Assembly (NCBI GenBank): GCA_949130485.1
Contig: OX422183.1
Coordinates: forward strand, 8,398,636 to 8,462,635
Reading direction: 5' to 3'
DNA: 64,000 nucleotides
DNA from: Agelas oroides
Lineage: Eukaryota; Porifera; Demospongiae; Agelasida; Agelasidae
Shown here: one piece after another, positions 2,456-52,798 of the stretch
Layout of the letters: each line of letters opens with the position of its first letter
Position numbering within the stretch: the first letter of the stretch is position 1
Notes under the pieces: model-generated
Database searches by the model: none
Seen by the model: only the letters and a program-made list of their open reading frames with translations
What the model was told of the DNA's origin: nothing
Made by a program: the position numbers and the translations under genes

Positions 2456-2468
2456 TGGATTCTTGCGG

Positions 2469-3112: not shown

Positions 3113-3144
3113 GTATAAGTTGTATGTGTGTGTGTGTGACCAAC

Positions 3145-8599: not shown

Positions 8600-11500
8600 A
8601 TGATACATGTGCACATTGTCATATGATGTCACTCGTAGGCAAACATTAGTAAGAAACTCTGTCACATGCCGTCCATGTAGCTAGATACCTTCCCCCATTT
8701 CTACTCTTCTTATTTGCCTTCTCCCATCCCCCACTTCTCTTTCCGTCCCATGTCCCACCCTCTCTAACATTTTTATGATGTCACTGTCACAAGTGATTAC
8801 AATACATCCCACCCGTATTAGCAAGCAAGCCAGATAATTATGCAATAGAACAGTGAGCATGATAACACAACTAGTGTGTGATAAACAATGGCATGTGCAG
8901 AATTTAACACAAAATCTTTGGTTGGTATTGTCATATTGTAGACCTTCATCAGTATAATTTCTGTGATGATGTCACATAATAATATTGTTTCACTTGTTTA
9001 TCTTCTTTTCCCACATGAACTGGTTCATTCCCTCCTACTCAGCGGGTAAGTTGACTATTCGAATGATACATGTGCACATTGTCATACGATGTCACTTATA
9101 AGCAAACACGCAATAATTAGTAAGAATCTCTGTCACATCCCGTCCATGTAGGTACGTGGATACCTTTCCCCATTTCTCCTCTTCTAATATGCCTTCTCCC
9201 ATCTCCCTCTTCCCTTCCCTCCCAAGTCCCACCCTCTTCCGTCTCCATTCTAACATTTTATGATCTCACTGTCACAAGATATTACAAAACCACCCACCCG
9301 TATTAGCAATCAAGCCAGATATGCAATAGAACAGTCAGCATGATAACACAACTAGTGTGTGATAAACAATGGCATGAGGAGAATTTAACACAAAAATCTT
9401 TGGTTGGTATTGTCATATTGTAGACTTTCATCAGTATAATTTCTGTGATGAGGTTACATTGTCATAGAATGTCAGCACATTGTCATAGAATGTCACTCCT
9501 AGACAAACACGCAACAATTAGTACGAGCCTCTGTCACATGCTGTCCATGTAGGTAGATACCTTTCCCCATTTTTCCTCTTCTTATTCGCCTTCTCCCATT
9601 CCCCACTCCCATCCCATCCCTCACTGTCACTACAATACCACCCATATTAGCAAACAAGCCAGATATGCAGTGAGCATGCTAATACGCAACTAGTGTGTGA
9701 TAAACAATGGCATGTGCATAATTTGACACGACAGTCTTTGGCTGGTTTTATCATATAGTAGACCTTCATCAGTATAATTTCTGTGATGACGTTACATAAT
9801 AATGTTGTTTCACTTGTTTATCTTATTTTCCCACATGAACTGGTTCTTTACCTCCTACTCATGCAGGAGGTAAGTTGACTATTCATATGATACGTACATG
9901 TGCACATTGTTATATGATGTTACTCGTAGGCAAACATGTAATAATTAGTACGAAACTCTGTCACATTCCGTCCATGTAGGTAGATACCTTTCTCCAATTT
10001 TCCTCTTCTTATTCGCCTTCTCCCATCCCCTACTTCTCTTTCCCTCCCATATCCAACCCTCTCTAACATTTAATGATCTCACTGTCGCAAGAGATTAGAA
10101 TTACCACCTACCCGTATTAGCAAACAAGCCACATATACAATAGAACAGTGAGCATGATAACACAACTCATGTGTAGAAAGGCAATGGCATGTGCAGAATT
10201 TAGCACGAAAATCTTTGGTTGGTATTGTCATATTGTAGACTTTCATCAGTATAATTTCTGTGATGAGGTTACATAATAATATTGATTCACTTGTTTATCT
10301 TCTTTTCCCACATGAACTGGTTCATTCCCTCCTACTCAGCGGGTAAGTTGACTATTCGAATGATACATGTGCATATTGTCATACAATGTTATTCATAGTC
10401 AAACACGCAACAATTAGTACGAAATTCTCACATACCGTCCATGTAGATAGATACTTTTCCCCATTTTTCCTCTTCTTATTCACTTTCTCCCATCCCTCAC
10501 TTCTCTTTCCCTCCCATATCCAACCCTCTCTAACATTTAATGACTTCACTGTCACAAGAGATTACAATTACCACCCACCCGTATTAGCAAACAAGCCAAA
10601 TATACAATAGAACAGTGAGCATGATAACACAACTCGTGTTTGGAAAGGCAATGGCATGTGCAGAATTTAACACAAAAGTCTTTGGTTGGTATTGTCATAT
10701 TGTAGACTTTCATCAGTATAATTTCTGTGATGAGGTTACATAATAATGCTGTTTCACTTGTTTATCTTCTTTTCCCAAATGAACTGGTCCATTCCCTCCT
10801 ACTCAGCGGGTAAGTTGACTATTCGAATGATACATGTGCACATTGTCATACGATGTCACTCGTAGGCAAACACGTAATAATTAGTTAGAAACTCTGTCAC
10901 ATTCCGTCCATGTAGGTAGATACTTTTCCCCATTTCTTCTTATTCGGATTCTCCCATCCCCCACTTCTCTTTGTGTCCCATGTCCAGCCATTTCTAACAT
11001 GACCTTACTGTCACAAGAGATTACAATTACCACCCACCCGTATTAGCAAACAAGCCAGATATGCAATAGAACTGTGATCATGATAAAACAACTAGTGTGT
11101 GGAAAAGCAATTGCATGTGCAGAATTTAACACGAAAAGTCTTTGTTTGGTATTGTCGTATTGTAGACTTTCGTTAGTATAATTTCTGATGAGGTTACATA
11201 ATAATGTTGTTTCACTTGTTTATCTTCTTTTCCCACATGAACATGTTTCATTCCATCCTACTCAGCTCTATTCATATGATACATGTGCACATTGTTATAC
11301 AATGTTATTCATAGTCAAACACGCAACAATTAGTACGACATTCTCACATACCGTCCATGTAGGTAGATACTTTCCCCCATTTTTCCTCTTCTTATTCGCC
11401 TTCTCCCATCCCCCAATTCTCTTTCCCTCCCATATCCAACCCTCTCTAACATTTAATGACCTCACTGTCACAAGAGATTACAATTACCACCCACCCGTAT

Positions 11501-13540
11501 TAGCAAACAAGCCAGATATGCATAAACAGTGAGCATGATAACACAACTAGTGTGTGGAAAGGCAATGGCATGTGCAGAATTTAACACAAAAATCTTTGGT
11601 TGGTATTGTCATATTGTAGACTTTCATCAGTATAACTTCTGTGATTAGGTTACATAATAATATTATTTCACTTGTTTATCTTCTTTTCACACATGAACTG
11701 GTTCATTCCCTCCTACTCAGGAGGTAAGTTGACTATTCATATCATACATGTGCACATTATTATACGATGTTACTTGTATGCAAACACGTAATAATTAGTA
11801 CGAAACTATGTCAAATGCCATCCATGTAGGTAGATAGTTTTCCCTATTCTCCTCTTCTTATTCACCTTCTCCCATCCCCTACTTCTCTTTCCCTCCCATA
11901 TCCAACCCTCTCTAACATTTAATGATCTCACTGTCACAAGAGATTACAATTACCACCCACCCGTATTAGCAAACAAGCCAGATACGCAATAGAACTGTGA
12001 TCATGATAACACAACTAGCGTGTGGAAAAGCAATGGCATATGACACAAAAATCTTTAGTTGGTATTGTCATATTGTAGACTCTCATCAGTATAATTTCTG
12101 TGATGCGGTTAAATAATAATGTTGTTTCACTTGTTTATCTTCTTTTCCCACATAAACTGGATCATTACCTCCTACTCAGGAGGTAAGTTGACTATTCATC
12201 TGCACTTTGTCATACGTACATGTACAATGACACTCGTAGGCAAACATGCAACAGTTAGTACAAAACTCTGTCACATGCCGTCCATGTAGGTAGGTACTTT
12301 TCCCCATTTCTCCTCTTCTTATTCGCCTTCTCCCATCCCCTACTTCTCTTTCCCTCCCATGTCCAACCGTCTATAACAATTAATGACCTCAGATTGCAAC
12401 CATACTAGCACACAAGCCAGATATACAATAGAACAGTGATCATGATAACACAACTAGTGTGTGGAAAGGCAAAAATCTTTGTTTGGTGTTGTCATATTGT
12501 AGACTTTCATCAGTATAATTTCTGTGATGATGTTACATAATAATGTTGTTTCACTTGTTTATCTTATTTTCCCACATGAACTGGTTCTTTCCCTCCTACT
12601 CATGCAGGAGGTAAGTTGACTATTCATGTGCACATTGTCATACGATGACACTCATAATAGGCAAACACCCAAGAATTAGTACGAAACTCTGTCACATGCC
12701 GTCCATGTAGGTAGATACCTTTCCCCATTTTTCCTCTTCTTATTCGCCTTCTCCCATCCCCCACATGAACTGGTGGTTCATTCCCTCCTATTCAGTTGGT
12801 AAGTTGATACATGTGCACATTGTCATACAATGTCACTCATAGGTAAACATGCAAGAATTGGTAACAAACACTATCCCTGCAGGTAGATACTTATTCTATT
12901 TCTCCTCTTCTTATTTACCTTCTCCCACCCCCCACTTCTCTTTCCCTCCCATGTCCCACCCTCTCCCATGTCCAATGTAACATTTTATGATCTTACTGTC
13001 ACAAGTGATTACAATACCACCCACCAGTGTTAACAAACAAGCCAAATATGCAATAGAACAGTGAGCATGATAATACACAACTAGTGTGTGATAAACAATG
13101 GCAGGTGTAGAATTTAACACAAAAGTCTTTGGTTGTTATTGTTGTATTGTAGACTTTAATCAGTATAATTTCTGTGATGATGTTACATAATAATGTTGTT
13201 TGACTTGTTTATCTTCTTTTCCCACATGAACTGGTTCATTCCCTCCTACTCAGCGGGTAAGTTACTTATTAGAATGATACATATGCACATTGTCATTCAA
13301 TGCCGCTCGTAGCCGAATTAGAAAGAAATTTGGTCACATACCGTCCATGTAAGTAGATACCTTTCCCCAATTCTCCTCTTCTTATTCACCTTCTCCCACC
13401 CCCCACTTCTCTTTCCCTCCCATGTCCCACCCTCTTCCATGTCCTGTCTATCATTTATGACCTCCCTGTCACAAGATATTACAGTACCACCCACCCATAT
13501 TAGCAAACAAGCCAGATATGCAATGGAACAGTGACCATGA

Positions 13541-14311
13541 TTGGGGCAAGCCTGAGCGAGTCCCACACTAGCGTGACTGCATTGCGCACGCGTGTGTGTA
13601 TCTATGCGCATATATATATATATGCTTGCTTGGACCGACCACTTACCGGAAATTTTAAATGAGCGCATTCAAATATTTCACGAAGATCGATATCGCGATA
13701 TCGTAAAGCATGTGGAGGCCAGTGGAGGGCTACTGTCAGAGTGCAGCGTCATGGACCCGGAGCGAAGACGACTGAAGTTGAAGCACGCGTGGCACTGGTT
13801 TGTGCTTCTAACGACGACAGCAGGCCGCTCACAGGCGGTGCAAATTTAATATGGAAGGTTGTTGACTACTCAGAAACCAGCGGTGTAAAGCTTATTCCAT
13901 GCATGTGTAGCCACGTTAGCAGCCCTGGCAGGTCGGTTTCAGGTCAGGGCCATGCATATTAAAACGGCACTCATAAACGCCATGAAATCCAGCTCATGAT
14001 TTCAGTATAAAGCTTGGTCCATGCATGTGTAGCCCAGGATGGAGAAATTGCTGCAACTTGTTGGCATATGCGTCATCAGGTTTGGCTTATTACGCTCATG
14101 TAACAGTAGACAGTGACAAATCCTGCTGTGTGCCATGAAAAGTTAATACGACATTTAAAGCAAATCAAAAACCATTTTAAAGCCCCCTGTGAATGGTAAA
14201 TGAATGTGCATGTAGGAGGATAATTGACTTTGTATTACATCACTCATCAGTGACATAATATCCTGTATCAGCTTGCTCAGGCTCGCCCCCACAATGTTCT
14301 ACATTTTCTAG
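13541..14311. mobile_element. Inverted-repeat element inserted in the satellite, copy 1
   Basis: Interrupts a monomer between CAGTGACCATGA and TAATACACAAC. The ends carry an imperfect inverted repeat: TTGGGGCAAGCCTGAGCGAG on the left against TTGTGGGGGCGAGCCTGAGC read inward from 14293. About 17 extra bases separate the right repeat from resumed satellite. A (TA)n run and an open frame of about 75 codons (MLAWTDHLPEILNERIQ ... to 13849) lie inside; no family was recognised for it. The same element sits at the same monomer position at 19973-20755. Confidence 0.7.
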
Positions 14312-17300
14312 TAATACACAACTAGTGTGTGATAAACAATGGCATGTGCAGAATTTAGCACGAAAATCTTTGGTTGGTATTGTCATATTGTAGACTTTCA
14401 TCAGTATAATTTCTGTGATGAGGTTACATAATAATATTGCTTCACTTGTTTATCTTCTTTTCCCACATGAACTGGTTCATTCCCTCCTACTCAGTTGGTA
14501 AGTTGACTATTCGAATGATACATGTGCACATTGTCTTACAAAGTCACTTGTAGGAAAACATGCAACAATTAGTAAGAATCTCTATCACATCCCGTCCATG
14601 TAGGTACGTGGATACCTTTCCCCATTTCTCCTCTTCTAATATGCCTTCTCCCATCTCCCTCTTCTCTTTCCCTCCCAAGTCCAACCCTCTACCGTCTCCA
14701 TTCTAACATTTTATGATCTCACTGTCACAAGAGATTACAATACCACCCACCCGTACTAGCACACAAGCCAGATATGCAATAGAACAGTGAGCATGATAAC
14801 ACAACTAGTGTGTGATAAACAATGGCATGTGCAGAATTTAGCACGAAAGTCTTTGGCTGGTATTGTCATATTGTAGACTTTCGTTAGTATAATTTCTGAG
14901 ATGAGGTTACACAATAATGTTGTTTCACTTGTTTCTCTTCTTTTCCCACATGAACTGGTTCATTCCCTCCTACTTAGGATGTAAGTTGACTATTCAAATG
15001 ATACATGTGCACATTGTCATACAATGTCACTCATAATAGGCAAACACCCAAGAATTAGTACGAAATTCTCACATACCGTCCATGTAGGTAGATACGTTTC
15101 CCCATTTTTCCTCTACTTATTCACTTTCTCCTATCCCCCACTTCTCTTTCCCTCCCATATCCAACACTCTCTAACATTTAATGACCTCACTGTCACAAGA
15201 GATTAGAATTACCACCCACCCGTATTAGCAAACAAGCCAGATATGCATAAACAGTGAGCATGATAACACAACTAGTGTGTGGAAAGGCAATGGCATGTGC
15301 AGAATTTAGCACGAAAATCTTTGGTTGGTATTGTCATATTGTAGACTTTCATCAGTATAATTTCTGTGATGAGGTTACATAATAATATTGATTCACTTGT
15401 TTATCTTCTTTTCCCACATGAACATGTTTCATTCCATCCTACTCAGATCGTAAGTTGACTATTCATATGATACATGTGCATATTGTTATACAATGTTATT
15501 CATAGTCAAACACGCAACAATTAGTACGAAATTCTCACATGCCGTCCATGTAGGTAGATACCTTTCCCCATTTTTCCTCTTCTTATTCACTTTCTCCCAT
15601 CCCCTACTTCTCTTTCCCTCCCATATCCAACCCTCTCTAACATTTAATGACCTCACTGTCACAAGAGATTAGAATTACCACCCACCCGTATTAGCAAACA
15701 AGCCAGATATACAATAGAACAGTGAGCATGATAACACAACTCGTGTTTGGAAAAGCAATGGCATGTGCAGAATTTAGCACGAAAATCTTTGGTTGGTATT
15801 GTCATATTGTAGACTTTCATCAGTATAATTTCTGTGATGAGGTTACATAATAATATTGCTTCACTTGTTTATCTTCTTTTCCCACATGAACTGGTTCATT
15901 CCCTCCTACTCAGTTGGTAAGTTGACTATTCGAATGATACATGTGAACATTGGTCACTTGTAGGAAAACATGCAACAATTAGTAAGAATCTCTATCACAT
16001 CCCGTCCATGTAGGTACGTGGATACCTTTCCCCATTTCTCCTCTTCTAATATGCCTTCTCCCATCTCCCTCTTCTCTTTCCCTCCCAAGTCCCACCCTCT
16101 ACCGTCTCCATTCTAACATTTTATGATCTCACTGTCACAAGAGATTACAATACCACCCACCCGTACTAGCACACAAGCCAGATATGCAATAGAACAGTGA
16201 GCATGATAACACAACTAGTGTGTGATAAACAATGGCATGTGCAGAATTTAGCACGAAAGTCTTTGGCTGGTATTGTCATATTGTAGACTTTCGTTAGTAT
16301 AATTTCTGAGATGAGGTTACACAATAATGTTGTTTCACTTGTTTCTCTTCTTTTCCCACATGAACTGGTTCATTCCCTCCTACTTAGGATGTAAGTTGAC
16401 TATTCAAATGATACATGTGCACATTGTCATACAATGTTATTCATAGTCAAACACGTAAGAATTAGTACGAAATTCTCACATACCGTCCATGTAGGTAGAT
16501 ACGTTTCCCCATTTTTCCTCTTCTTATTCGGATTCTCCCATCCCCTACTTCTCTTTGTGTCCCATGTCCAGCCATTTCTGACCTCACTCTCACAAGAGAT
16601 TACAATTACCACCCACCCGTATTAGCAAACAAGCCACATACGCAATAGAACAGTGAGCATGATAACACAACTCGTGTGTGGAAAAGCAATGGCATGTGCA
16701 GAATTTAACACAAAAGTCTTTGTTTGGTATTGTCATATTGTAGACTTTCATCAGTATAATTTCTGTGATGAGGTTATATAATAATATTGCTTCACTTGTT
16801 TATCTTCTTTTCCCACATGAACTGGTTCATTCCCTCCTACTTAGGCGGTAAGTTGACTATTCATATGATACATGTGCACATTGTTATACAATGTTACTCA
16901 TAGTCAAACACGCAACAATTAGTAAGAAACTATGTCCCATACCGTCCATGTAGATAGATACTTTTCCCCATTTTTCCTCTTCTTATTCGCCTTCTCCCAT
17001 CCCCCAATTCTCTTTCCCTCCCATATCCAACCCTCTCTAACATTTTATGATCTCATTGTCACAAGAGATTAGAATTACCACCCACCCGTATTAGCAAACA
17101 AGCCAGATATACAATAGAACAGTGAGCATGATAACACAACTCGTGTTTGGAAAGGCAATGGCATGTGCAGAATTTAACACAAAAATCTTTGGTTGGTATT
17201 GTCATATTGTAGACTTTCATCAGTATAATTTCTGTGATGAGGTTACATAATAATATTGCTTTACTTGTTTATCTTCATTTCCCACATGAACTGGTTCATT

Positions 17301-19972
17301 CCTTCCTACTCAGATCGTAAGTTCACTATTCGAATGATACATGTGCACATTGTCGTACAATGTTACTCATAGTCAAACACGCAAGAATTAGTAAGAAACT
17401 ATGTCCCATACCGTCCATGTAGATAGATACTTTTCCCCATTTTTCCTCTTCTTATTCGCCTTCTCCCATCCCCCAATTCTCTTTCCCTCCCATATCCAAC
17501 CCTCTCTAACATTTAATGACCTCACTGTCACAAGAGATTAGAATTACCACCCACCCGTATTAGCAAACAAGCCAGATATACAATAGAACAGTGAGCATGA
17601 TAACACAACTAGTGTGTGGAAAGGCAATGGCATGTGCAGAATTTAACACAAAATCTTTGGTTGGTATTGTCATATTGTAGACTTTCATCAGTATAATTTC
17701 TGTGATTAGGTTACATAATAATATTGATTCACTTGTTTATCTTCTTTTCTCACATGTACTGGTTCATTCCCTCCTACTCATGCAGGAGGTAAGTTGACTA
17801 TTCAAATGATACGTACATGTGCACATTGTTATATGATGTTACTCGTAGGCAAACATGTAATAATTAGTACGAAACTCTGTCACATGGTGTCCATGTAGGT
17901 AGATACCTTTCTCCAATTTTCTTCTTATTTATTCGCCTTCTCCCATCCCCTACTTCTCTTTCCCTCCCACATCCAACCCTCTCTAACATTTAATGATCTC
18001 ACTGTCACAAGAGATTAGAATTACCACCCACCTGTATTAGCAAACAAGCCACATATACAATAGAACAGTGAGCATGATAACAAAACTCGTGTGTAGAAAG
18101 GCAATGGCATGTGCAGAATTTAGCACGAAAATCTTTGGTTGGTATTGTCATATTGTAGACTTTCATCAGTATAATTTCTGTGATGAGGTTACATAATAAT
18201 ATTGATTCACTTGTTTATCTTCTTTTCCCACATGAACTGGTTCATTCCATCCTACTCAGCGGGTAAGTTGACTATTCATATGATACATGTGCATATTGTT
18301 ATACAATGTTATTCATAGGCAAACACGCAACAATTAGTACGAAATTCTCACATACCGTCCATGTAGGTAGATACGTTTCCCCATTTTTCCTCTTCTTATT
18401 CACTTTCTCCCATCCCCCAATTCTCTTTCCCTCCCATATCCAACCCTCTCTAACATTTAATGACCTCACTGTCACAAGAGATTAGAATTACCACCCACCC
18501 GTATTAGCAAACAAGCCAGATATACAATAGAACAGTGAGCATGATAACACAACTCGTGTTTGGAAAAGCAATGGCATGTGCAGAATTTAGCACGAAAATC
18601 TTTGGTTGGTGTTGTCATATTGTAGACTTTCATCAGTATAATTTCTGTGATGAGGTTACATAATAATGTTGTTTCACTTGTTTGTCTTCTTTTCCCACAT
18701 GAACTGGTTCATTCCCTCCTACTCAGCGGGTAAGTTGACTATTCGAATGATACATGTGCACATTGTCTTAGAAAGTCACTTGTAGGAAAACATGCAACAA
18801 TTAGTAAGAATCTCTGTCACATCCCGTCCATGTAGGTACGTGGATACCTTTCCCCATTTCTCCTCTTCTAATATGCCTTCTCCCATCTCCCTCTTCTCTT
18901 TCCCTCCCAAGTCCCACCCTCTACCGTCTCCATTCTAACATTTTATGATCTCACTGTCACAAGATATTACAATACCACCCACCCGTATTAGCAAACAAGC
19001 CAGATATGCAATAGAACAGTCAGCATGATAACACAACTAGTGTGTGATAAACAATGGCATGAGGAGAATTTAACACAAAAGTGTTTGGTTGGTATTGTCA
19101 TATTGTAGACTTTCATCAGTAATAATTTCGATGAGGTTACATAATAATGTTGTTTCACTTGTTTATCTTCTTTTCCCACATGAACTGGTTCATTCCCTCC
19201 TACTCAGCGGGTAAGTTGACTATTCAAATGATACATGTGCACATTGTTATACGATGTTACTTGTAGGCAAACACCTGATAATTAGTAAGAAACTCTGTCA
19301 CATACCGTCCATGTAGGTAGATACCTTTCTCCAATTTTCCTCTTCTTATTCGCCTTCTCCCATCCCCCACTTCTCTTTCCCTCACATGTCCCACCCTCTT
19401 CCATGTCCTGTCTGTCATTTATGACCTCACTGTCACAAGAGATTACAATACCACCCACCCGTACTAGCACACAAGCCAGATATGCAATAGAACAGTGAGC
19501 ATGATAACACAGCTAGTGTGTGATAAACAATGGCATGTGCAGAATTTAGCACGAAAGTCTTTGGCTGGTATTGTCATATTGTAGACTTTCATTAGTATAA
19601 TTTCTGTGATGATGTTACGTAATAATGTTGTTTGACTTGTTTATCTTCTTTTCCCACATGAACTGGTTCATTCCCTCCTACTCAGCGGGTAAGTTACTTA
19701 TTAGAATGATACATATGCACATTGTCATTCAATGCCGCTCGTAGCCGAATTAGAAAGAAATTTGGTCACATACCGTCCATGTAAGTAGATACCTTTCCCC
19801 AATTATCCTCATCTTATTCACCTTCTCCCACCCCCCACTTCTCTTTCCCTCCCATGTCCCACCCTCTTCCATGTCCTGTCTATCATTTATGACCTCCCTG
19901 TCACAAGATATTACAGTACCACCCACCCATATTAGCAAACAAGCCAGATATGCAATGGAACAGTAACCATGA

Positions 19973-20755
19973 TTGGGGCAAGCCTGAGCGAGCCCCACAC
20001 TAGCGTGACTGCATTGCGCACGCGTGTGTGTATCTATGCGCATATATATATATATATGCTTGCTTGGACCGACCACTTACCGGAAATTTTAAATGAGCGC
20101 ATTCAAATATTTCACGAAGATCGATATCGCGATATCGTAAAGCATGTGGAGGCCAGTGGAGGGCTACTGTCAGAGTGCAGCGTCATGGACCCGGAGCGAA
20201 GACAACTGAAGTTGAAGCACGCGTGGCACTGGTTTGTGCTTCTACCGATGACAGCAGGCCGCTCACAGGCGGTGCAAATTTAATATGGAAGGTTGTTGAC
20301 TACTCAGAAACCAGCGGTGTAAAGCTTATTCCATGCATGTGTAGCCACTTTAGCAGCCCTGGCAGGTCGGTTTCAGGTCAGGGTCATGCATATTAAAACG
20401 GCACTCATAAACGCCATGAAATCCAGCTCATGATTTCAGTATAAAGCTTGGTCCATGCATGTGTAGCCCAGGATGGAGAAATTGCTGCAACTTGTTGGCA
20501 TATGCGTCATCAGGTTTGGCTTATTACGCTCATGTACTCATGTAACAGTAGACAGTGACAAATCCTGCTGTGTGCCATGAAAAGTTAATACGACATTTAA
20601 AGCAAATCAAAAACCATTTTAAAGCCCCCTGTGAATGGTAAATGGATGTGCATGTAGGAGGATAATTGACTTGATGTATTACATCACTCATCAGTGACAT
20701 AATATCCTGTATCAGCTTGCTCAGGCTCGCCCCCACAATGTTCTACATTTTCTAG
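19973..20755. mobile_element. Inverted-repeat element inserted in the satellite, copy 2
   Basis: Nearly identical to the element at 13541-14311, at the same position within its monomer and with matching flanking monomer sequence (for example TATTAGAATGATACATATGC upstream in both). Differences are a few substitutions, (TA)n length and a short duplication CTCATGTACTCATGTAAC. Shared flanks mean that this copy arose by duplication of a satellite block, not by a second insertion. The ~75-codon open frame is kept. Confidence 0.75.
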
Positions 20756-23440: not shown

Positions 23441-23901
23441 CAGCCGTTCCGCCAGTGACAAGTATACGGGGAATTATTGAAAAACAGGAAGTTAAAACAC
23501 AGACGCATTCCAGCGTTTAATTAACGGCACCTTGTCTTCCGGTGAGTTTTCAAAGTCTCTTGCCAACAAACAAGAAGCTGTAGGCGCCTACATTGCCAGC
23601 GGTTTTATAGACCAATGAGTCTACTATCAAGATCCAACGTTTCAAGTTGTAGCCTCTTACCGCTTTGTGTAGGGAAGCCGTTGTACACAAACGGTTCGAT
23701 CGCACCGCGTGCAAGAGGGGTGCAGTTCTTTGTTGCGCGTTTTTGTTCGCCCCCCCTGAGCTGCATGAAACAGGTACCATTTGAAAGCACTGGAATAGGG
23801 CTACAAAATATGCAAAACCTAGGCATTGGAATTTCTGCACGTATATATACACTTTCCGTTTTTCAATAATTGTCAGTATATTGTCACTGGCGGAACGACT
23901 G
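23441..23901. mobile_element. 461-bp element with CAG..CTG inverted ends, 4-bp duplication
   Basis: The ends read CAGCCGTTCCGCCAGTGACA and, inverted from the right, CAGTCGTTCCGCCAGTGACA. Similarity continues for about 50 bp through AATTATTGAAAAAC. The direct repeat AGTG at 23437-23440 and 23902-23905 reconstructs the uninterrupted monomer sequence ACTAGTGTGTG exactly, so AGTG is the target duplication. A 4-bp duplication with CAG ends does not identify one superfamily by itself. Open frames inside lack recognisable domains, so it is treated as non-coding. Confidence 0.85.
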
Positions 23902-25308: not shown

Positions 25309-25310
25309 TA

Positions 25311-33027: not shown

Positions 33028-33978
33028 GTAACCCTCGGCGCGCATGCGCAGCGAGGGTTACAGTACTTCGTTTGTCTGTGTGTCTGTCTGTGTGTCTGTG
33101 TGTTACAACTAGCTTGGCTTACCAGGCGGCTAAATCTCTGAAGTTTGAACACAGATAGGCTTTAAACTGAATGAGGATGTGTTTAAATTGAGCCGATTTC
33201 ACCAAGAACGTTTCGTTCAAGAGTTATGCTGCAGTTCATTTGCCACAGCGACCGCTAGTCGGCCATATTCTGGTCTGGGAACGAGTTCACGCGCCCTGGG
33301 CTGGGTGGGGTCTGGGCACGAGACTAGTCAACTTTGACCTTCTAACTTGACAATATTGATTGAAACCGGCTTATAAGTCGGAGCTGTGAGTATCCAGTGG
33401 TAGAATCAGACCGTTTGAAATTGCTAGTCCGCTACGATGTATAGCGAGCAGCGAATGGCAATTAGAAATGGCTTACTTGGCAGTGATAAGCTACTGAGAT
33501 AAACCAATCCAGCCTAGTTACACGCTATGTACACAATTCAAACCACTGACTGGCACTGCCCAGGGCTTGCTAGCACGCTTGTTAACTTTGACCCGACTTG
33601 ACAACGCTGATTATGAGCAATTTATACCATTGAGCTGTTTTGTCACTGCTCTGTTGACTTCAGAGATAGCCTGTGATTGTCGTTATAATATGCAATGATT
33701 TAAGACTATAATAAGCCTGGTATGCATAAATAGAACTTACCATGAACAAAATTTGTTAAACCTCATCAGATGCAGAGGAGGTTGGACACACACATGCTCT
33801 GATATAACTTGCGCAGTTACGTACATGTACTGCCCTAATTGCATTCTCCATTGCATTCCAGCTTACAATTAGCTGCTGAAATGAACTAGCTCTACATCTA
33901 TAACCGCTAGCCCCATGTCATCCCCAGCATGAATTGCACCCAGTATCTGCGCCGAGGGTTCAGCACTTCAGTGCTTTT
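33028..33978. mobile_element. ~950-bp element with AACCCTCGGCGC inverted ends in the satellite
   Basis: Splits a monomer between GGTTGGTATCA and CATTGTATTGTAG. Near the left end is AACCCTCGGCGC, and near the right end its complement GCGCCGAGGGTT. The left end itself forms a hairpin (GTAACCCTCG ... CGAGGGTTAC with a GCGC-rich loop), followed by a TGTC/TGTG-rich run at about 33070-33110. Flanks suggest a 2-3 bp duplication (CA or TCA). No coding frame is recognised. Confidence 0.7.
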
Positions 33979-36900
33979 CATTGTATTGTAGACTTTCGTT
34001 AGTACAATTTCTGTGATGAGGTTACATAATATTGTTGTTTCACTTGTTTATCTTGTTTTCCCACATGAACTGGTTCATTCACTCCTACTCAGTTTGTAAG
34101 TTGACTATTTGAATGATACATGTGCACATTGCCATACAATGTCGCTCGTATGCCAACATGCAAGAATTAGTAAGAAACGCTGCCAAATGCCGTCCATGTA
34201 GGTAGATACTTTCTCCGTTTCTTCTCTTCTTATTCACCTTCTTCCATCCCCCACTTCTCTTTCCCTCCCTTGTCCTGTCTAGCGTTTATGACCTCACTGT
34301 CACAAGAGATTACAATACCACCCACCCGTATTAAGAAACAAGCCGGATATGCAATAGAACAGTGACCATGATAATACCCAACTAGTGTGTGATAAACAAT
34401 GGCATGTGCATAATTTGACACAACAGTCTTTGTCTGGTTTTGTCGTATTGTAGACTTTCGTTAGTATAATCTCTGTGATGAGGTTACATAATAATGTTTT
34501 TTCACTTGTTTATCTTCTTTTCCCACATGTACTTGTTCATTCCCTCCTACTTAGGTGGTAAGTTGACTATTCGAATGATACATGTGCACATTGCCATACA
34601 ATGTCACTCATAGGCAAACATGCAAGAATTAGTAAGAAAGTCTGTCAAATGCTGTCCATGTAGGTAGATACTTTCTGCATATCTCCTCTTCTTATTTGCC
34701 TTCTCCCATCCCCCACTTCTCTTTCCCTCCCATGTCCCACCCTCTTCCATGTCCTGTCTATCATTTATGACCTCACTGTCACAAGAGATTACAATACCAC
34801 CCACCCGTATTAGGAAACAAGCCAGATATGCAATAGAACAGTGATACACAACTAGTGTGTGATAAACAGTGGCATGTGCAGAAATTAACACAAAAGTCTT
34901 TGGTTGGAATTGTCGTATTGTAGACTTTCGTTAGTATAATTTCTGTTATGAGGGGTTACATAATAATGTTGTTTCACTTGTTTATCTTCTTTTCCCACAT
35001 GAACTGGTTCATTCCCTCCTACTCAGATGGTAAGCTGACTATTAGAATGATACATGCGCACATTGTCATACAATGTCACTCATAGGCAAACATGCAAGAA
35101 TTGGTAAGAAAGTCTGTCAAATGCTATCCATGTAGGTAGATACTTTCTGCATATCTCCTCTTCTTATTTGCCTTCTCCCATCCCCCACTTCTCTTTCCCT
35201 CCCATGTCCCACCCTCTTCCATGTCCTGTCTATCATTTATGGCCTCACTGTCACAAGAGATTACAATACCACCCACCCGTATTAGGAAACAAGCCAGATA
35301 TGCAATAGAAGAGTGATACACAACTAGTGTGTGATAAACAATGGCATGTGCAGAAATTAACACAAAAGTCTTTGGTTGGTATCGTCGTATTGTAGACTTT
35401 CGTTAGTATAATTTCTGTGATGAGGGGTTACATAATAATGTTGTTTCACTTGTTTATCTTCTTTTCCCACATGAACTGGTTCATTCCCTCCTACTCAGAT
35501 GGTAAGCTGACTATTAGAATGATACATGCGCACATTGTCATACAATGTCACTCATAGGCAAACATGCAAGAATTAGTAAGAAAGTCTGTCAAATGCTGTC
35601 CATGTAGGTAGACACTTTCTGCATATCTCCTCTTCTTATTTGCCTTCTCCCATCCCCCACTTCTCTTTCCCTCCCATGTCCCACCCTCTTCCATGTCCTG
35701 TCTATCATTTATGACCTCACTGTCACAAGAGATTACAATACCACCCACCCGTATTAGGAAACAAGCCAGATATGCAATAGAACAGTGATACACAACTAGT
35801 GTGTGATAAACAATGGCATGTGCAGAAATTAACACAAAAGTCTTTGGTTGGTATCGTCGTATTGTAGACTTTCGTTAGTATAATTTCTGTGATGAGGGGT
35901 TACATAATAATGTTGTTTCACTTGTTTATCTTCTTTTCCCACATGAACTGGTTCATTCCCTCCTACTCAGTTTGTAAGTTGACTATTCAAATGATACATG
36001 TGCACATTGCCATACAATGTCACTCATAGGCAAACATGCAAGAATTAGTAAGAAACTCTGCCAAATGCCGTCCATGTAGGTAGATACATTCTGCATATCT
36101 CCTCTTCTTATTTGCCTTCTCCCATCCCCCACCTTCTCTTTCCCTCCCATGTCCTGTCTATCATTTATGACCTCACTGTCTCAAGAGATTACAATACCAC
36201 CCACCCGTATTAGGAAACAAGCCGGATATGCAATAGAACAGTGACCATGATAATACACAACTAGTGTGTGATAAACAATGTCATGTGCATAATTTTACAC
36301 AACAGTCTTTGTCTGGTTTTGTCGTATTGTAGACTTTCATCAGCATAACTTCTGTGATGAGGTTACATAATAATGTTGTTTGACTTGTTCATCTTCTTTT
36401 CCCACATGAACTGGTCCATTCCCTCCTACTCAGATAGTAAGCTGACTATTAGAATGATACATGCGCACATTGTCATACAATGTCACTCATAGGCAAACAT
36501 GCAAGAATTAGTAAGAAACTCTGCCAAATGCCGTCCATGTAGTAGATACTTTCTCCGTTTCTCCTCATCTTATTCACCTTCTCCCATCCAGCACTTCACT
36601 TTCCCTCCCATGTCCCACTGTTTTCCATGTCCTGTCTATCATTTATGACCTCACTGTCACAAGAGATTACAATACCACCCACCCATATTAGGAAACAAGC
36701 CAGATATGCAATACAACAGTGATACACAACTAGTGTGTGATAAACAATGGCATGTGCAGAAATTAACACAAAAGTCTTTGGTTAGTATCATTGTATTGTA
36801 GACTTTCGTTAGTATAATTTCTGTGATGAGGTTACATAATAATGTTGTTTGACTTGTTCATCTTCTTTTCCCACATGAACTGGTCCATTCCCTCCTACTC

Positions 36901-39900
36901 AGATGGTAAGTTGACTATTCGAATGATACATGTGCACATTGCCATACAATGTCACTCGTAGGCCAACATGCAAGAATTAGTAAGAAACTCTGCCAAATGC
37001 CGTCCATGTAGGTAGATACTTTCTCCGTTTCCCCTCTTCTTATTCACCTTCTCCCATCCAGCACTTCACTTTCCCTCCCATGTCCCACTGTTTTCCATGT
37101 CCTGTCTATCATTTATGATCTCACTGTCAAAGAGATTACAATACCACCCGCCCGTATTAGGAAACAAGCCGGATATGTAATAGAACAGTGATACACAACT
37201 AGTGTGTGATAAACAATGGCATGTGCAGAAATTAACACAAAAGTCTTTGGTTGGTATCGTCGTATTGTAGACTTTCGTTAGTATAATTTCTGTGATGAGG
37301 TTACATAATATTGTTGTTTCACTTGTTTATCTTCTTTTCCCACATGAACTGGTTCATTCCCTCCTACTTAGGCGGTAAGTTGACTATTCAAATGATACAT
37401 GTGCACATTGCCATACAATGTCACTCGTAGGCCAACATGCAAAATTAGTAAGAAACTCTGCCAAATGCCATCCATGTAGGTAGATACTTTCTGCACATCT
37501 CCTCTTCTTATTTGCCTTCTCCCATCCCCCACTTCTCTTTCCCTCCCATGTCCCACCCTCTTCCATGTCCTGTCTATCATTTATGACCTCACTGTCACAA
37601 GAGATTACAATACCACCCACCCGTATTAGGAAACAAGCCAGATATGCAATAGAACAGTGATACACAACTAGTGTGTGATAAACAATGGCATGTGCAGAAA
37701 TTAACACAAAAGTCTTTGGTTGGTATCGTCGTATTGTAGACTTTCGTTAGTATAATTTCTGTGATGAGGGGTTACATAATAATGTTGTTTCACTTGTTTA
37801 TCTTCTTTTCCCACATGAACTGGTTCATTCCCTCCTACTTAGGTGGTAAGTTGACTATTCGAATGATACATGTGCACATTGCCATACAATGTCACTCGTA
37901 GGCCAACATGCAAGAATTAGTAAGAAAGTCTGTCAAATGCTGTCCATGTAGGTAGATACTTTCTGCATATCTCCTCTTCTTATTTGCCTTCTCCCATCCC
38001 CCACCTTCTCTTTCCCTCCCATGTCCTGTCTATCATTCATGACCTCACTGTCTCAAGAGATTACAATACCACCCACCCGTATTAGGAAACAAGCCGGATA
38101 TGCAATAGAACAGTGACCATGATAATACACAACTAGTGTGTGATAAACAATGGCATGTGCATAATTTGACACAACAGTCTTTGTCTGGTTTTGTCGTATT
38201 GTAGACTTTCATCAGCATAACTTCTGTGATGAGGTTACATAATAATGTTGTTTGACTTGTTCATCTTCTTTTCCCACATGAACTGGTCCATTCCCTCCTA
38301 CTCAGATGGTAAGCTGACTATTAGAATGATACATGCGCACATTGTCATACAATGTCACTCATAGGCAAACATGCAAGAATTAGAAAGAAACTCTGTCAAA
38401 TGCCATCCATGTAGTAGATACTTTCTCTGTTTCTCCTCATCTTATTCACCTTCTCCCATCCAGCACTTAACTTTCCCTCCCATGTCCCACTGTTTTCCAT
38501 GTCCTGTCTATCATTTATGACCTCACTGTCACAAGAGATTACAATACCACCCACCCATATTAGGAAACAAGCCAGATATGCAATACAACAGTGATACACA
38601 ACTAGTGTGTGATAAACAGTGGCATGTGCAGAAATTAACACAAAAGTCTTTGGTTGGTATCATTGTATTGTAGACTTTCGTTAGTATAATTTCTGTGATG
38701 AGGTTACATAATAATGTTTTTTCACTTGTTCATCTTCTTTTCCCACATGAACTGGTCCATTCCCTCCTACTCAGATGGTAAGCTGACTATTAGAATGATA
38801 CATGCGCACATTGTCATACAATGTCACTCATAGGCAAACATGCAAGAATTAGTAAGAAAGTCTGCCAAATGCCGTCCATGTAGGTAGATACTTTCTCCGT
38901 TTCCCCTCTTCTTATTCACCTTCTCCCATCCAGCACTTCACTTTCCCTCCCATGTCCCACTGTTTTCCATGTCCTGTCTATCATTTATGATCTCACTGTC
39001 AAAGAGATTACAATACCACCCGCCCGTTTAGGAAACAAGCCGGATATGTAATAGAACAGTGATACACAACTAGTGTGTGATAAATAATGGCATGTGCAGA
39101 AATTAACACAAAAGTCTTTTGCTGGTATTGTCGTATTGTAGACTTTTGTTAGTATAATTTCTGTGATGAGGTTACATTATAATGTTGTTTCACCTGTTTA
39201 TCTTCTTTTCCCACATGAACTGGTCCATTCCCTCCTACTCAGCGGGTAAGTTGACTATTCGAATGATACATGTGCACATTGCCATACAATGTCACTCGTA
39301 GGCCAACAAGCAAGAATTAGTAAGAAAGTCTGTCAAATGCCGTCCATGTAGGTAGATAGTTTCTGCATATCTCCTCTTCTTATTTGCCTTCTCCCATCCC
39401 CCACTTCTCTTTCCCTCCCATGTCCCACTGTTTTCCATGTCCTGTCTATCATTTATGACCTCACTGTCACAAGAGATTACAATACCACCCACCCGTATTA
39501 GGAAACAAGCCAGATATGCAATAGAAGAGTGATACACAACTAGTGTGTGATAAACAATGGCATGTGCAGAAATTAACACAAAAGTCTTTGGTTGGTATCA
39601 TTGTATTGTAGACTTTCGTTAGTATAATTTCTGTGATGAGGTTACATAATAATGTTTTTTCACTTGTTTATCTTCTTTTCCCACATGAACTGGTTCATTC
39701 CATCCTACTCAGCTGGTAAGTTGACTATTCGAATGATACATGTGCACATTGCCATACAATGTCACTCGTAGGCCAACATGCAAGAATTAGTAAGCAACTC
39801 TGCCAAATGCCGTCCATGTAGGTAGATACTTTCTCCATTTCCCCTCTTCTTATTCACCTTCTCCCGTCCAGCACTTCACTTTCCCTCCCATGTCCCACTG

Positions 39901-42039
39901 TTTTCCATGTCCTGTCTATCATTTATGACCTCACTGTCACAAGAGATTACAATACCACCTACCCGTATTAGGAAACAAGCCGGATATGCAATAGAACAGT
40001 GATACACAACTAGTGTGTGATAAACAATGGCATGTACAGAAATTAACACAAAAGTCTTTGGTTGGTATCATTGTAATGTAGACTTTCGTTAGTATAATTT
40101 CTGTGATGAGGTTACATAATAATGTTTTTTCACTTGTTTATCTTCTTTTCCCACATGAACTGGTTCATTCCCTCCTACTTAGGAGGTAAGTTGACTATTC
40201 CAATGATACATGTGCACATTGCCATACAATGTCACTCGTAGGCCAACATGCAAGAATTAGTAAGAAACTCTGCCAAATGCCGTCCATGTAGGTAGATACT
40301 TTCTCCGTTTCCCCTCTTCTTATTCACCTTCTCCCATCCAGCACTTCACTTTCCCTCCCATGTCCCACTGTTTTCCATGTCCTGTCTATCATTTATGATC
40401 TCACTGTCAAAGAGATTACAATACCACCCGCCCGTATTAGGAAACAGGCCAGATATGCAATAGAACAGTGATACACAACTAGTGTGTGATAAACAATGGC
40501 ATGTGCAGAAATTAACTCAAAAGTCTTTTGCTGGTATTGTCGTATTGTAGACTTTCGTTAGTATAATTTCTGTGAGGAGGTTACATAATATTGTTGTTTC
40601 ACTTGTTTATCTTCTTTTCCCACATGAACTGGTTCATTCCCTCCTACTTAGGTGGTAAGTTGACTATTCGAATGATACATGTGCACATTGCCATACAATG
40701 TCACTCGTAGGCCAACAAGCAAGAATTAGTAAGAAAGTCTGTCAAATGCCGTCCATGTAGGTAGATAGTTTCTGCATATCTCCTCTTCTTATTTGCCTTC
40801 TCCCATCCCCCACTTCTCTTTCCCTCCCATGTCCCACTGTTTTCCATGTCCTGTCTATCATTTATGACCTCACTGTTACAAGAGATTACAATACCACCCG
40901 CCCGTATTAGGAAACAAGCCAGATATGCAATAGAACAGTGATACACAACTAGTGTGTGATAAACAATGGCATGTGCAGAAATTAACACAAAAGTCTTTGG
41001 TTGTTATCATTGTATTGTAGACTTTCGTTAGTATAATTTCTGTGATGAGGTTACATAATATTGTTGTTTCACTTGTTTATCTTGTTTTCCCACATGAACT
41101 GGTTCATTCACTCCTACTCAGTTTGTAAGTTGACTATTTGAATGATACATGTGCACATTGCCATACAATGTTGCTCGTAGGCCAACATGCAAGAATTAGT
41201 AAGAAACGCTGCCAAATGCCGTCCATGTAGGTAGATACTTTCTCCGTTTCTTCTCTTCTTATTCACCTTCTTCCATCCCCCACTTCTCTTTCCCTCCCTT
41301 GTCCTGTCTAGCATTTATGACCTCACTGTCACAAGAGATTACAATACCACCCACCCGTATTAGGTAACAAGCCAGATATGCAATAGAACAGTGATACACA
41401 ACTAGTGTGTGATAAACAATGGCATGTGCAGAAATTAACACAAAAGTCTTTGGTTGGTATCATTGTATTGTAGACTTTCGTTAGTATAATTTCTGGGATG
41501 AGGTTACATAATAATGTTTTTTCACTTGCTTATCTTCTTTTCCCACATGAACTGGTTCATTCCCTCCTACTTAGGGGGTAAGTTGACTATTCGAATGATA
41601 CATGTGCACATTGCCATACAATGTCACTCCTGGCCAACATGCAAGAATTAGTAAGAAACTCTGCCAAATGCCGTCCATGTAGGTAGATACTTTCTCCGTT
41701 TCCCCTCTTCTTATTCACCTCCTCCCATCCATCACTTCACTTTCCCTCCCATGTCCCACTGTTTTCCATGTCCTGTCTATCATTTATGATCTCACTGTCA
41801 AAGAGATTACAATATCACCCACCCGTATTAGGAAACAAGCCAGATATGCAATAGAACAGTGATACACAACTAGTGTGTGATGAACAGTGCCATGTGCAGA
41901 AATTAACACAAAAGTCTTTGGTTGGTATTGTCATATTGTAGTCTTTCGTTAGTATAATTTCTGTGATGAGGTTACATAATATTGTTGTTTCACTTGTTTA
42001 TCTTCTTTTCCCACATGAACTGGTTCATTCCCTCCTACT

Positions 42040-44855
42040 CAGCTGGTAAGTTGACTATTGGAATGATACATGTGCTCATTGCCATACAATGTCACTCGTA
42101 GGCCAACATGCAAGAATTAGTGAGAGACTCTGCCAAATGCCGTCCATGTAGGTAGATACTTTCTCCGTTTCCCCTCTTCGTATTTGCCTTCTCCCATCCA
42201 GCACTTCACTTTCCCTCCCAATCCCACCCTTCTTCCATGTCCTGTCTATCATTTATAATCTCACTGTCACAAGAGATTACAATACCACCCGCCCGTATTA
42301 GGTAACAAGCCAGATATGCAATAGAACAGTGATACACAACTAGTGTGCGATAAACAATGGTATGTGCAGAAATTAACACAAAAAGTCTTTGGTTGGTATC
42401 GTTGTATTGTACACCTTCATCAGTATAATTTCTGTGATGAGGTTACATAATAATGTTGTTTCACTTGTTTATCTTCTTTTCCCACATGAACTGGTACATT
42501 CCCTCCTACTTAGGCGGTAAGTTGACTATTCGAATGATATATGTGCACATTGCCATACAATGTCACTCGTAGGCCAACATGCAAGAATTAGTAAGAAACT
42601 CTGCCAAATGCCGTCCATTTAGGTAGATATTTTCTGCATATCTCCTCTTCTTATATGCCTTCTCCCACCCCCCACTTCTCTTTCCCTCCCATGTCCCACT
42701 GTTTTCCATGTCCTGTCTATCATTTATGACTTCACTGTCACAAGAGATTACAATACCACCCGCCCGTATTAGGTAACAAGCCAGATATGCAATAGAACAG
42801 TGATACACAACTAGTGTGTGATAAACAATGGCATGTGCAGAAATTAACACAAAATTCTTTGGTTGGTATCTTCGTATTGTAGACTTTCGTTAGTATAATT
42901 TCTATGATGAGGTTACATAATGTTGTTTCACTTGTTTATCTTCTTTTCCCACATGAACTGGTTCATTCCCTCCTACTTAGGCGGTAAGTTGACTATTCAA
43001 ATGATACATGTGCACATTGCCATACAATGTCACTCGTAGGCCAACATGCAAAATTAGTAAGAAACTCTGCCAAATGCCATCCATGTAGGTAGATACTTTC
43101 TGCACATCTCCTCTTCTTATTTGCCTTCTCCCATCCCCCACTTCTCTTTCCCTCCCATGTCCCACCCTCTTCCATGTCCTGTCTATCATTTATGACCTCA
43201 CTGTCACAAGAGATTACAATACCACCCACCCGTATTAGGAAACAAGCCGGATATGCAATAGAACAGTGACCATGATAATACACAACTAGGGTGTGATAAA
43301 CAATGGCATGTGCATAATTTGACACAACAGTCTTTGTCTGGTTTTGTCGTATTGTAGACTTTCATCAGTATAATTTCTGTGATGAGGTTACATAATAATG
43401 TTGTTTCACTTGTTTATCTTCTTTTCCCACATGAACTGGTTTATTCCCTCCTACTCAGCTGGTAAGTTGACTATTGGAATGATACATGTGCTCATTGCCA
43501 TACAATGTCACTCGTAGGCCAACATGCAAGAATTAGTGAGAGACTCTGCCAAATGCCGTCCATGTAGGTAGATACTTTCTCCGTTTCCCCTCTTCGTATT
43601 TGCCTTCTCCCATCCAGCACTTCACTTTCCCTCCCAATCCCACCCTTCTTCCATGTCCTGTCTATCATTTATAATCTCACTGTCACAAGAGATTACAATA
43701 CCACCCGCCCGTATTAGGTAACAAGCCAGATATGCAATAGAACAGTGATACACAACTAGTGTGCGATAAACAATGGTATGTGCAGAAATTAACACAAAAA
43801 GTCTTTGGTTGGTATCGTTGTATTGTACACCTTCATCAGTATAATTTCTGTGATGAGGTTACATAATAATGTTGTTTCACTTGTTTATCTTCTTTTCCCA
43901 CATGAACTGGTACATTCCCTCCTACTTAGGCGGTAAGTTGACTATTCGAATGATATATGTGCACATTGCCATACAATGTCACTCGTAGGCCAACATGCAA
44001 GAATTAGTAAGAAACTCTGCCAAATGCCGTCCATTTAGGTAGATATTTTCTGCATATCTCCTCTTCTTATATGCCTTCTCCCACCCCCCACTTCTCTTTC
44101 CCTCCCATGTCCCACTGTTTTCCATGTCCTGTCTATCATTTATGACTTCACTGTCACAAGAGATTACAATACCACCCGCCCGTATTAGGTAACAAGCCAG
44201 ATATGCAATAGAACAGTGATACACAACTAGTGTGTGATAAACAATGGCATGTGCAGAAATTAACACAAAATTCTTTGGTTGGTATCGTCGTATTGTAGAC
44301 TTTCGTTAGTATAATTTCTATGATGAGGTTACATAATGTTGTTTCACTTGTTTATCTTCTTTTCCCACATGAACTGGTTCATTCCCTCCTACTTAGGCGG
44401 TAAGTTGACTATTCAAATGATACATGTGCACATTGCCATACAATGTCACTCGTAGGCCAACATGCAAAATTAGTAAGAAACTCTGCCAAATGCCATCCAT
44501 GTAGGTAGATACTTTCTGCACATCTCCTCTTCTTATTTGCCTTCTCCCATCCCCCACTTCTCTTTCCCTCCCATGTCCCACCCTCTTCCATGTCCTGTCT
44601 ATCATTTATGACCTCACTGTCACAAGAGATTACAATACCACCCACCCGTATTAGGAAACAAGCCGGATATGCAATAGAACAGTGACCATGATAATACACA
44701 ACTAGGGTGTGATAAACAATGGCATGTGCATAATTTGACACAACAGTCTTTGTCTGGTTTTGTCGTATTGTAGACTTTCATCAGTATAATTTCTGTGATG
44801 AGGTTACATAATAATGTTGTTTCACTTGTTTATCTTCTTTTCCAACATGAACTGG
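42040..44855 (+). repeat. Two near-identical 1416-bp trimeric satellite units
   Basis: Three consecutive monomers (junction triplets CTG, GCG, GCG) are repeated once at a 1416-bp offset: 42563 and 43979, and 42977 and 44393, are equivalent points. Rare shared variants include CTCTTCGTATTTGCC, TTGTATTGTACACC and CCGTCCATTTAGGTAG. Very few differences were seen between the two copies, so the duplication is recent. Confidence 0.9.
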
Positions 44856-46289
44856 TCCATTCCCTCCTACTCAGCGGGTAAGTTGACTATTAGAATGATA
44901 CATGCGCACATTGTCATACAATGTCACTCATAGGCAAACATGCAAGAATTAGTAAGAAACTCTGCCAAATGCCGTCCATGTAGGTAGATACTTTCTCCGT
45001 TTCACCTCTTCTTTTTGCCTTCTCCCATTCCCCACCTTCTCTTTCCCTCCCATGTCCCACCCTCTTCCATGTCCTGTCTATCATTTATGACCTCACTTTG
45101 ACAAGAGATTACAATACCATCCACCCGTATTAGGAAACAAGCCAGATATGCAATAGAACAGTGATACACAACTAGTGTGTGATAAACAGTGGCATGTGCA
45201 GAAATTAACACAAAAGTCTTTTGCTGGTATTGTCGTATTGTAGACTTTCGTTCGTGTAATTTCTGTGATGAGGTTACATAATATTGTTGTTTCACTTGTT
45301 TATCTTCTTTTCCCACATGAACTGGTTCATTCCCTCCTACTTAGGGGGTAAGTTGACTATTCGAATGATACATGTGTACATTGCCATACAATGTCACTCG
45401 TAGGCCAACATGCAAGAATTAGTAAGAAAGTCTGTCACATACCGTCCATGTAGGTAGATACTTTCTCCGTTTCTCCTCTTCTTATTTGCCTTCTCCCATC
45501 CCGCACTTCTCTTTCCCTCCCATGTCCCACCCTCTTCCATGTCCTGTCTATCATTTATGACCTCACTGTCACAAGAGATTAAAATACCACCCACCCGTAT
45601 TAGGAAACAAGCCAGATATGCAATAGAACAGTGACCATGATAATACACAACTAGGGTGTGATAAACAATGGCATGTGCATAATTTGACACAACAGTCTTT
45701 GTCTGGTTTTGTCGTATTGTAGACTTTCATCAGTATAATTTCTGTGATGAGGTTACAAAATAATGTTGTTTCACTTGTTTATCTTCTTTTCCAACATGAA
45801 CTGGTCCCTTCCTTCCTACTCAGCGGGTAAGTTGACTATTAGAATGATACATGCGCACATTGTCATACAATGTCACTCATAGGCAAACATGCAAGAATTA
45901 GTAAGAAACTCTGCCAAATGCCGTCCATGTAGGTAGATACTTTCTCCGTTTCACCTCTTCTTATTTGCCTTCTCCCATCCCGCACTTCTCTTTCCCTCCC
46001 ATGTCCTGTCTATCATTTATGACCTCACTGTCACAAGAGATTACAATACCACCTGCCGTATTAGGAAACAAGCCAGATATACAATAGAACAGTGATACAC
46101 AACTAGTGTGTGATAAACAATGGCATGTGCAGAAATTAACACAAAAGTCTTTGGTTGGTATCGTCGTATTGTAGACTTTCGTTAGTATAATTTCTGTATT
46201 GAGGTTACATAATAATGTTGTTTCACTTGTTTATCTTCTTTTCCCACATGAACTGGTTCATTCCCTCCAATTCAGGAAGTAAGTTGACT

Positions 46290-46715
46290 ATTCGAATGAT
46301 ACATGTGCACATTGTCATACAATGTCACTCGTAGGCATACAATGTCACTCATAGGCAAACTTCACTCTGTCAACATTCTGTCCATGTACACTGTAAGTAG
46401 ATACCATCTCTTGCTATTTTCCTCTCCCATATTGCTCTTTTCCCTTTGTCTCCCATTACCCTTCCTATTTTATTCTCTTATGTTTTAAGACCCCACTGTC
46501 ACAAGGGATTATGCCCCTCCATATTGGCAGACAAGCCTCCGAGCATGGTGACTAGTGTGCGATAAACAGCTCCCCCCCCCTCCCAGTTCTCCCCTTCTCA
46601 TTTCCTATCCCCTTTTTCCTTTGTTTTCTGTTTTTGTATACAATGTTGCAGTTTACTAATCACCTCAATTTCCCACTTGTGAATTGGTCCATAAATTCAT
46701 TCCTACTTTAATCCA
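46290..46715 (+). repeat. Degenerate terminal satellite monomer
   Basis: The right border of the array is strongly diverged. The order of landmarks is kept (GTCCATGTA.., pyrimidine block, CACTGTCACAAGGGATTA, ACTAGTGTGCGATAAACA, ..CACTTGTGAATTGGTCC.., ATTCCTACTTTA), but identity is low. A 20-bp segment CATACAATGTCACTC is duplicated at 46318-46350. Divergence at the edge, with homogeneity inside, is the usual pattern of unequal exchange. Confidence 0.75.
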
Positions 46716-52567: not shown

Positions 52568-52798
52568 GTAACATTTGTTGCTCTACAGTTGTGCTTCCAT
52601 GCTAAGTTTTGGGGGAAGCATAGAAATGCATTGTGAACAGGATTGTGGTGGTCTCTTAGCATTGAGAATGATTATACTGAACTTTGTTTTCCTTGCCTAG
52701 GAATATGAGAGTGTCACAACTCCATGTTCTTATTTCTAGTATCATAGAGTTACCACTGTGTTTCTGCTATTCCCACTAACACACCACGTATAATCCAG

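Follow-up and report, generated by a model that had tools for sequence, protein, structure and literature searches.

Candidate one-codon exons in a satellite array upstream of a ROCO gene in the sponge Agelas oroides

Can a satellite array consist of exons that are each a single codon long? We analyzed a window of 64,000 nucleotides from the sponge Agelas oroides (C1 bases 8398636-8462635; genome assembly of 259.3 Mb in 141 contigs), in which a tandem array of intron-like monomers stands 5' of an exon of the ROCO family and repeats an apparent acceptor, three variable bases, and a donor (YAG-N3-GTAAG). Judging from its sequence, the array probably represents alternatively spliced one-codon exons between a start exon and the ROCO exon, with triplets kept diverse by selection.

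Candidate junctions in the window and in other arrays

In the window, a pattern search finds YAG-N3-GTAAG 73 times, always on the plus strand (0 on the minus strand). Among these sites, 72 lie inside the array, with YAG starts at 9040-46273, and the remaining one is outside it at 59845. A preliminary description of this stretch had given about 72 such plus-strand monomers and a hand count of 14 triplet kinds, and both figures agree with the computed ones: CGG 20, TTT 9, GCG 8, GAG 6, ATG 6, GTG 4, TTG, CCG, GGG, and CTG 3 each, GAT, ATC, and GAA 2 each, and ATA 1. Its claim that the spacing is always three also holds, as 3 is the only spacing between exact YAG and GTAAGYT ends among those of 0 to 30 checked in five arrays. 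At 3 junctions (9864, 12605, and 17783), 4 additional bases stand ahead of the acceptor (CTACTCATGCAG), and the 3-base spacing is retained.

Because the site definition itself demands YAG and GTAAG, a profile search trained on intact sites was run beside the pattern search. Counting junction-spanning hits, it finds intact junctions in 72 of 73 cases in the window array and in 213 of 215 over the five arrays; the monomer near 11255 that had been said to lack the site is recovered as the non-intact profile match (Table 1). The end of the array combines 2 observations, as BLAST homology stops at 46537 and the degenerate last monomer was traced by eye to ~46708. Two insertions of ~780 bases (13540-14313 and 19972-20757) occupy an identical monomer position, which suggests a higher-order repeat copying one insertion.

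Diverged arrays of the same candidate one-codon design are present on three contigs. Genome-wide, ACTYAGNNNGTAAG occurs 502 times forward and 542 times in reverse, against 169 and 104 for a reversed-pattern control. We analyzed five arrays, the window array (W) and those of loci A, B, C, and D, which carry from 23 (D) to 72 sites each. The consensus units of A, B, and C measure 332, 447, and 476 bp, and those of A, B, C, and W are identical in GTAAGTTGACTATT and TCCTACTCAG, with large indels in the middle. An open reading frame (ORF) of 396 aa that resembles a reverse transcriptase (by eye) is found 5' of array C, at C1:1771411-1772598. Sites with the triplets ATA and AAA, to which the pattern was restricted, are also present on the minus strand at C9:8682600-8703891.

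We rejected a reading of the junctions as transposon ends, given that half-junctions without their other half occur at just 2 and 2 places in 259 Mb (exact patterns; diverged ends would escape). With exact patterns, the dispersed copies and free ends that define introners or transposons are almost absent.

Variability of the triplet

The 71 units between sites in the window include 61 of 440-500 bp, which were aligned, and 10 of other lengths, which were left out. The triplet columns have entropies of 1.85, 1.82, and 1.00 bits, compared with 0.24 on average, which places them 1, 1, and 12 as single columns. The preliminary description had named a triplet no more variable than its neighbours as an argument against one-codon exons; instead, the triplet is the most variable 3-column window of the window array (4.67 bits; runner-up 2.82). 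It also ranks first in arrays A (61 of 64 units aligned), B (25 of 27), and C (22 of 24). Divergence from the consensus over the five arrays is 0-1% for AG plus GTAAG, 2-7% on average for other flank sites, and 36-57% for the triplet.

Monomers with similar introns display the same excess. Specifically, in monomer pairs that are 1-2% apart in the intron, triplet differences per site are 0.55 in A (94 pairs), 0.35 in B (17), 0.86 in C (7), 0.43 in W (7), and 0.27 in D (5). Ten close pairs have near-equal downstream introns and unlike triplets, and 9 of them also differ upstream of the junction (8 to 41 substitutions per 300 bases), while the remaining pair (GAG/GAT) is similar on both sides. 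Since 9 of 10 differ upstream, we explain these unlike triplets by exchange and not by hypermutation of the triplet, which was rejected—i.e. much of the triplet difference between close pairs is reshuffling. Reshuffling creates no diversity by itself, so the excess over the intron requires selection or a raised mutation rate. We prefer selection because of the codon tests that follow.

Codon use of the triplets

The 213 triplets of the five arrays comprise 24 kinds and no stop, while shuffled columns average 8.0 stops. The preliminary description had reported no stops but held this to be not significant; the absence stands, and the judgment is upheld by the deduplicated counts given below. Searching the genome for exact matches to ACTYAGTRRGTAAG, which catches TAA, TAG, TGA, and TGG, yields 34 places, of which 22 are in array loci and are all TGG, while 8 of the 12 elsewhere are stops.

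The third base also follows the genetic code. It is G in 91 of 93 triplets from four-fold boxes, compared with 62 of 120 from split boxes, and for 53 of the 60 triplets without a final G, the G form has another amino acid or no coding form exists. When triplets are counted once per array, the G-ending fractions are 19/21 and 14/32 (Fisher P = 0.0005; permutation P = 0.00045), and with this count the genetic-code grouping beats 99.3% of all 8/8 groupings. The simplest reading would be that the donor favours G as the last exon base, and that G is relinquished where the amino acid demands it.

Two further ideas were tried and set aside. Avoidance of CAG triplets as competing acceptors is refuted by at least 5 CAG in one array, among the first 100 of 221 places. 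Full inclusion of the triplets as a helix finds no clear backing either, as an amphipathic codon order is not clearly above shuffles (fraction at or above, 0.064 to 0.931 in the five arrays).

A ROCO gene family and the reading frame across the array

The exon 3' of the window array encodes Roc followed by COR (PF08477, E = 5.1e-11; PF16095, COR-A, E = 1.1e-12); its 3' end in Table 1, 50728, is the stop of the ORF and not a mapped exon end. At locus C, an exon 3' of the ROCO exon matches a Death domain above the Pfam cut-off (E = 2.8e-07). Searching the genome with the ROCO protein gives 59 matches (60 of 250 candidates scored), among which 17 close copies, including that of the window, share 66-100% identity. 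Among the places listed (in some cases the first 100), array sites stand 5' of at least 14 of these 17 copies, on the same strand in 14 of 14. No array sites were seen among these places 5' of C1:6067144, C1:6130234, and C9:8739270; the second of these has a start-exon block at 6155051. The ratio of nonsynonymous to synonymous substitution (dN/dS) of the ROCO exon is 0.42 for the window against B, and 0.40 against C. Separately, 20 distant Roc-COR relatives (25-28% identity), 19 of them on the minus strand, are clustered at C20:6346526-6705004.

Candidate start exons were found with the block 5' of array B, which has 42 matches (40 of 458 candidates scored). Ten start-block places are at ROCO or array loci; at most of the others, similarity is limited to the 3' portion of the query, which is apparently a dispersed repeat. 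At 9 of the 10 loci the block has an acceptor, an ATG, and a donor (GTGTGT or GTATGT), with 27 or 30 nt from ATG to donor, ending in phase 0; at the tenth (C1:8536457) the match is confined to the region beyond the exon. The candidate peptides are MSDRKPSHNQ (A), MGNGESSEK (B), MSRIELPEE (C), MSDRESSEK (C17), MSDRESYEK (C9 9.279), MSDSEPSEDE (C1 6.155 and 5.944), and MSDSESSEDE (C1 8.519 and 5.397). An array is visible 3' of the start exon at 8 of these 9 loci.

On the other side, the array is followed at 7 of 17 loci by a candidate 25-nt exon bordered by AG and GTGAAG, which enters in phase 0 and leaves in phase 1. It would encode ALQEKKMK in the window and D, EQEEKKLK in A, EQREKKMK in B, ELQEKKMK in C, VLQEKKMK at C1 8.628, and KLQEKKLK at C1 6.132. 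Candidate exons of 19 and 18 nt between array and ROCO exon were dropped in its favour, as paralog homology skips that stretch in 6 paralogs. Directly after the ROCO acceptor, ATTATCAAGAAG is present in 15 of 17 loci and opens in phase 1, so that G joined to AT TAT CAA gives DYQ; two divergent C9 ROCO copies encode the full DYQ (by eye). Wherever parts were found, the order is start exon, array, 25-nt exon, and ROCO exon on one strand. With the donors and acceptors chosen, the candidate exons flanking the array are both in phase 0 where they face it, so each triplet would be a whole codon.

Proposed splicing and points against it

The microexon reading put forward in the preliminary description thus probably holds, with support from the place of the array 5' of ROCO, the exon phases, the absence of stops, and third-base use, although the last supports it weakly under the strictest counts. 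The start exon would be spliced to at least one triplet, then to the 25-nt exon, and then to the ROCO exon, and the predicted protein would begin MSDSESSEDE-X(n)-ALQEKKMK-DYQEALKLG..., where X(n) is variable. Crossing-over among monomers would reshuffle the codons and selection on the protein would maintain their diversity, resulting in a ROCO GTPase with a variable N-terminal residue or peptide. If every triplet were used, the five arrays would contribute 23 to 72 residues.

Repeated splicing could append codons singly, as a fresh GTAAG stands three bases past each join. Passages of PMC6224609 describe repression of such sites by the exon junction complex in mammalian cells, which stepwise splicing would need to overcome. 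Stepwise splicing with random skipping might give each transcript its own N-terminal peptide on a ROCO-Death protein, one residue per splicing event—i.e. a combinatorial, somatically variable tag—but we regard this extension as speculative and rather doubtful. Such a tag would perhaps serve self/non-self recognition or immunity; the clustered Roc-COR family with its Death-domain exon hints at an immune or recognition role.

Several observations weigh against one-codon exons. Regarding gene structure, the 18.6 kb of sequence 5' of the array yielded no start exon for the window gene. Four of the nine start exons, those reading MSDSE, contain an internal GTGAG that could act as an earlier donor and would end the exon in phase 1; it is missing from the remaining five, and the outer donor was chosen because all nine have it. 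At 10 of 17 loci, the DNA fetched did not reveal the 25-nt exon, and at 4 of those 10 unrelated sequence takes its place (by eye). Within the host family, dN/dS between the ROCO exons of B and C is 0.77, two ROCO copies carry one internal stop each (C1:6130234-6132441 and 6198527-6200713; TGA and TAG), and the ROCO protein search returned no ROCO exon 3' of the array at C9:8.68-8.70 Mb.

The statistics of the triplet are also sensitive to how copies are counted. With triplets taken once per array, 2.3 stops are expected and the probability of none is 0.054, which becomes 0.275 with distinct triplets only. For third-base use, counting each triplet once overall gives P = 0.055, and within second base T the values are 2.6e-6 with all triplets, 0.16 per array, and 0.47 overall. 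In array D (19 of 22 units aligned) the triplet is only the second most variable window (2.86 against 3.11 bits). Over the five arrays, individual flank sites reach divergences of 32-52%, as high as the triplet. Of 72 monomer pairs whose introns are less than 1% apart, 10 have unlike triplets, and in the window 0 of 30 do. Last, the profile that yields 213 of 215 intact junctions was trained on intact sites.

Alternative explanations

The junctions could instead be recursive splice sites, that is, relays for removing a long satellite intron, where the 3-nt exons are mostly skipped and have no role in the protein. Relay sites are documented in long introns in parts of PMC13149111 and PMC6224609, and the YAG/GTAAG pair is like a zero-nucleotide recursive site, save for the 3 bases. 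This explanation does not predict a triplet far more variable than the intron, nor stop-free exact matches in the arrays or a third base that follows the code, and we consider it unlikely.

An ordinary intronic satellite, in which unequal crossing-over multiplied one old microexon together with its intron and the copies now go largely unused, with neutral diversity, is very unlikely in our view. The monomers are satellite-like in their higher-order repeats and exchanges, copy number varies from 23 to 72 sites, and the closest monomer pairs mostly have the same triplet (62 of 72). Neutral diversity should, however, equal that of the intron, whereas the triplet differs at 0.27-0.86 of sites in pairs 1-2% apart, and both splice motifs are intact in 213 of 215 junctions.

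Least probable is a recombination or mutation hot spot with no RNA role, in which the triplet would be varied at DNA level as the spacer between the arms CTACTYAG and GTAAGTTG of a junction for site-specific recombination or transposition: these arms form a loose palindrome (6 of 8 for CTACTTAG, by eye) and exchanges end near the junction (the 9 of 10 close pairs above), but lone half-sites are almost absent (exact patterns), the array points the same way as the ROCO gene in the 14 cases seen, the exon phases and codon rules fit coding, and homologous crossing-over requires no special enzyme.

Features of the window

The features named above are collected in Table 1. Fibronectin type III (FN3) exons at 1287-3156 of the window are part of a small family of their own on C1, with 10 matches. 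This FN3-domain gene was rejected as the host of the array, as 1 of its 10 genome matches adjoins an array, and that is the window's own.

Table 1. Array, candidate exons, and ROCO gene features in the window (position 1 is its first base).
Feature	Position	Strand	Basis
Tandem array of intron-like monomers, ~470 bp, with several insertions	8600..46708	+	BLAST and by eye
72 candidate 3-nt exons (the three bases after YAG); first 9043-9045, last 46276-46278	9043..46278	+	Pattern sites and column entropy
The one window-array junction, out of 73, that lacks YAG-N3-GTAAG	11196..11327	+	Profile search
Candidate 25-nt exon, GCACTGCAAGAGAAGAAGATGAAAG between TAG and GTGAAG; ALQEKKMK plus G, phase 0 to 1	46742..46766	+	Paralog comparison, 7 of 17 loci
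Exon encoding Roc-COR (ROCO); follows acceptor TTTGCAG and is taken to open in phase 1, (G)AT TAT CAA	48510..50728	+	Pfam and paralog comparison
Candidate downstream exon, Death-domain match under the Pfam cut-off (E = 0.0038)	52780..53148	+	Pfam

Comparison with known systems

The putative host protein resembles other ROCO proteins in the Roc and COR-A matches of its main exon and the Death-domain match of a downstream exon; we know of no ROCO protein with a hypervariable spliced N-terminus. Dscam-type clusters hold mutually exclusive alternative exons in a tandem array of one gene. The sponge arrays are like them in having tandem candidate alternative exons within one gene, but here these carry one codon, and mutual exclusivity is not implied. 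Recursive splicing and RS exons, as far as the sources cited above describe them, share an acceptor and a donor that are near back-to-back within a long intron. The sponge junctions differ in having three codon-like variable bases between the two and in numbering dozens per intron; AG directly before GT, as in zero-nucleotide recursive sites, does not occur in the five arrays, where the spacing is 3 and never 0.

One-codon exons are known as single cases. For example, a 3-nt exon of mouse Ncam is mentioned in a passage of PMC8042270, as a single exon and not as an array like the one described here. In open-licence full texts on microexons and 3-nt exons, we found no report of tandem one-codon exon arrays. 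If true, dozens of such exons in tandem, with a hypervariable codon, would open a new route to protein diversity through splicing, and would mean selection on single codons borne by satellite repeats. Gene callers and read aligners struggle with tiny exons, and further genomes may therefore contain such arrays.

The nearest known kind is the micro-exon genes (MEGs) of flatworms. Those of schistosomes and tapeworms are described in sections of PMC7653826 as having consecutive small exons, each a multiple of three in length, whose skipping can alter the protein by one amino acid; the criteria given there are at least 7 exons, at least half of them micro and divisible by three, and a run of at least 4. 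With 23 to 72 consecutive candidate 3-nt exons per array, the sponge loci exceed that run, on the DNA alone. The two systems share runs of small exons divisible by three and, so far as these sections go, differ in that the sponge candidate exons are all exactly 3 nt, are tandem-duplicated with their introns by dozens, have a hypervariable codon, and are part of a ROCO family.

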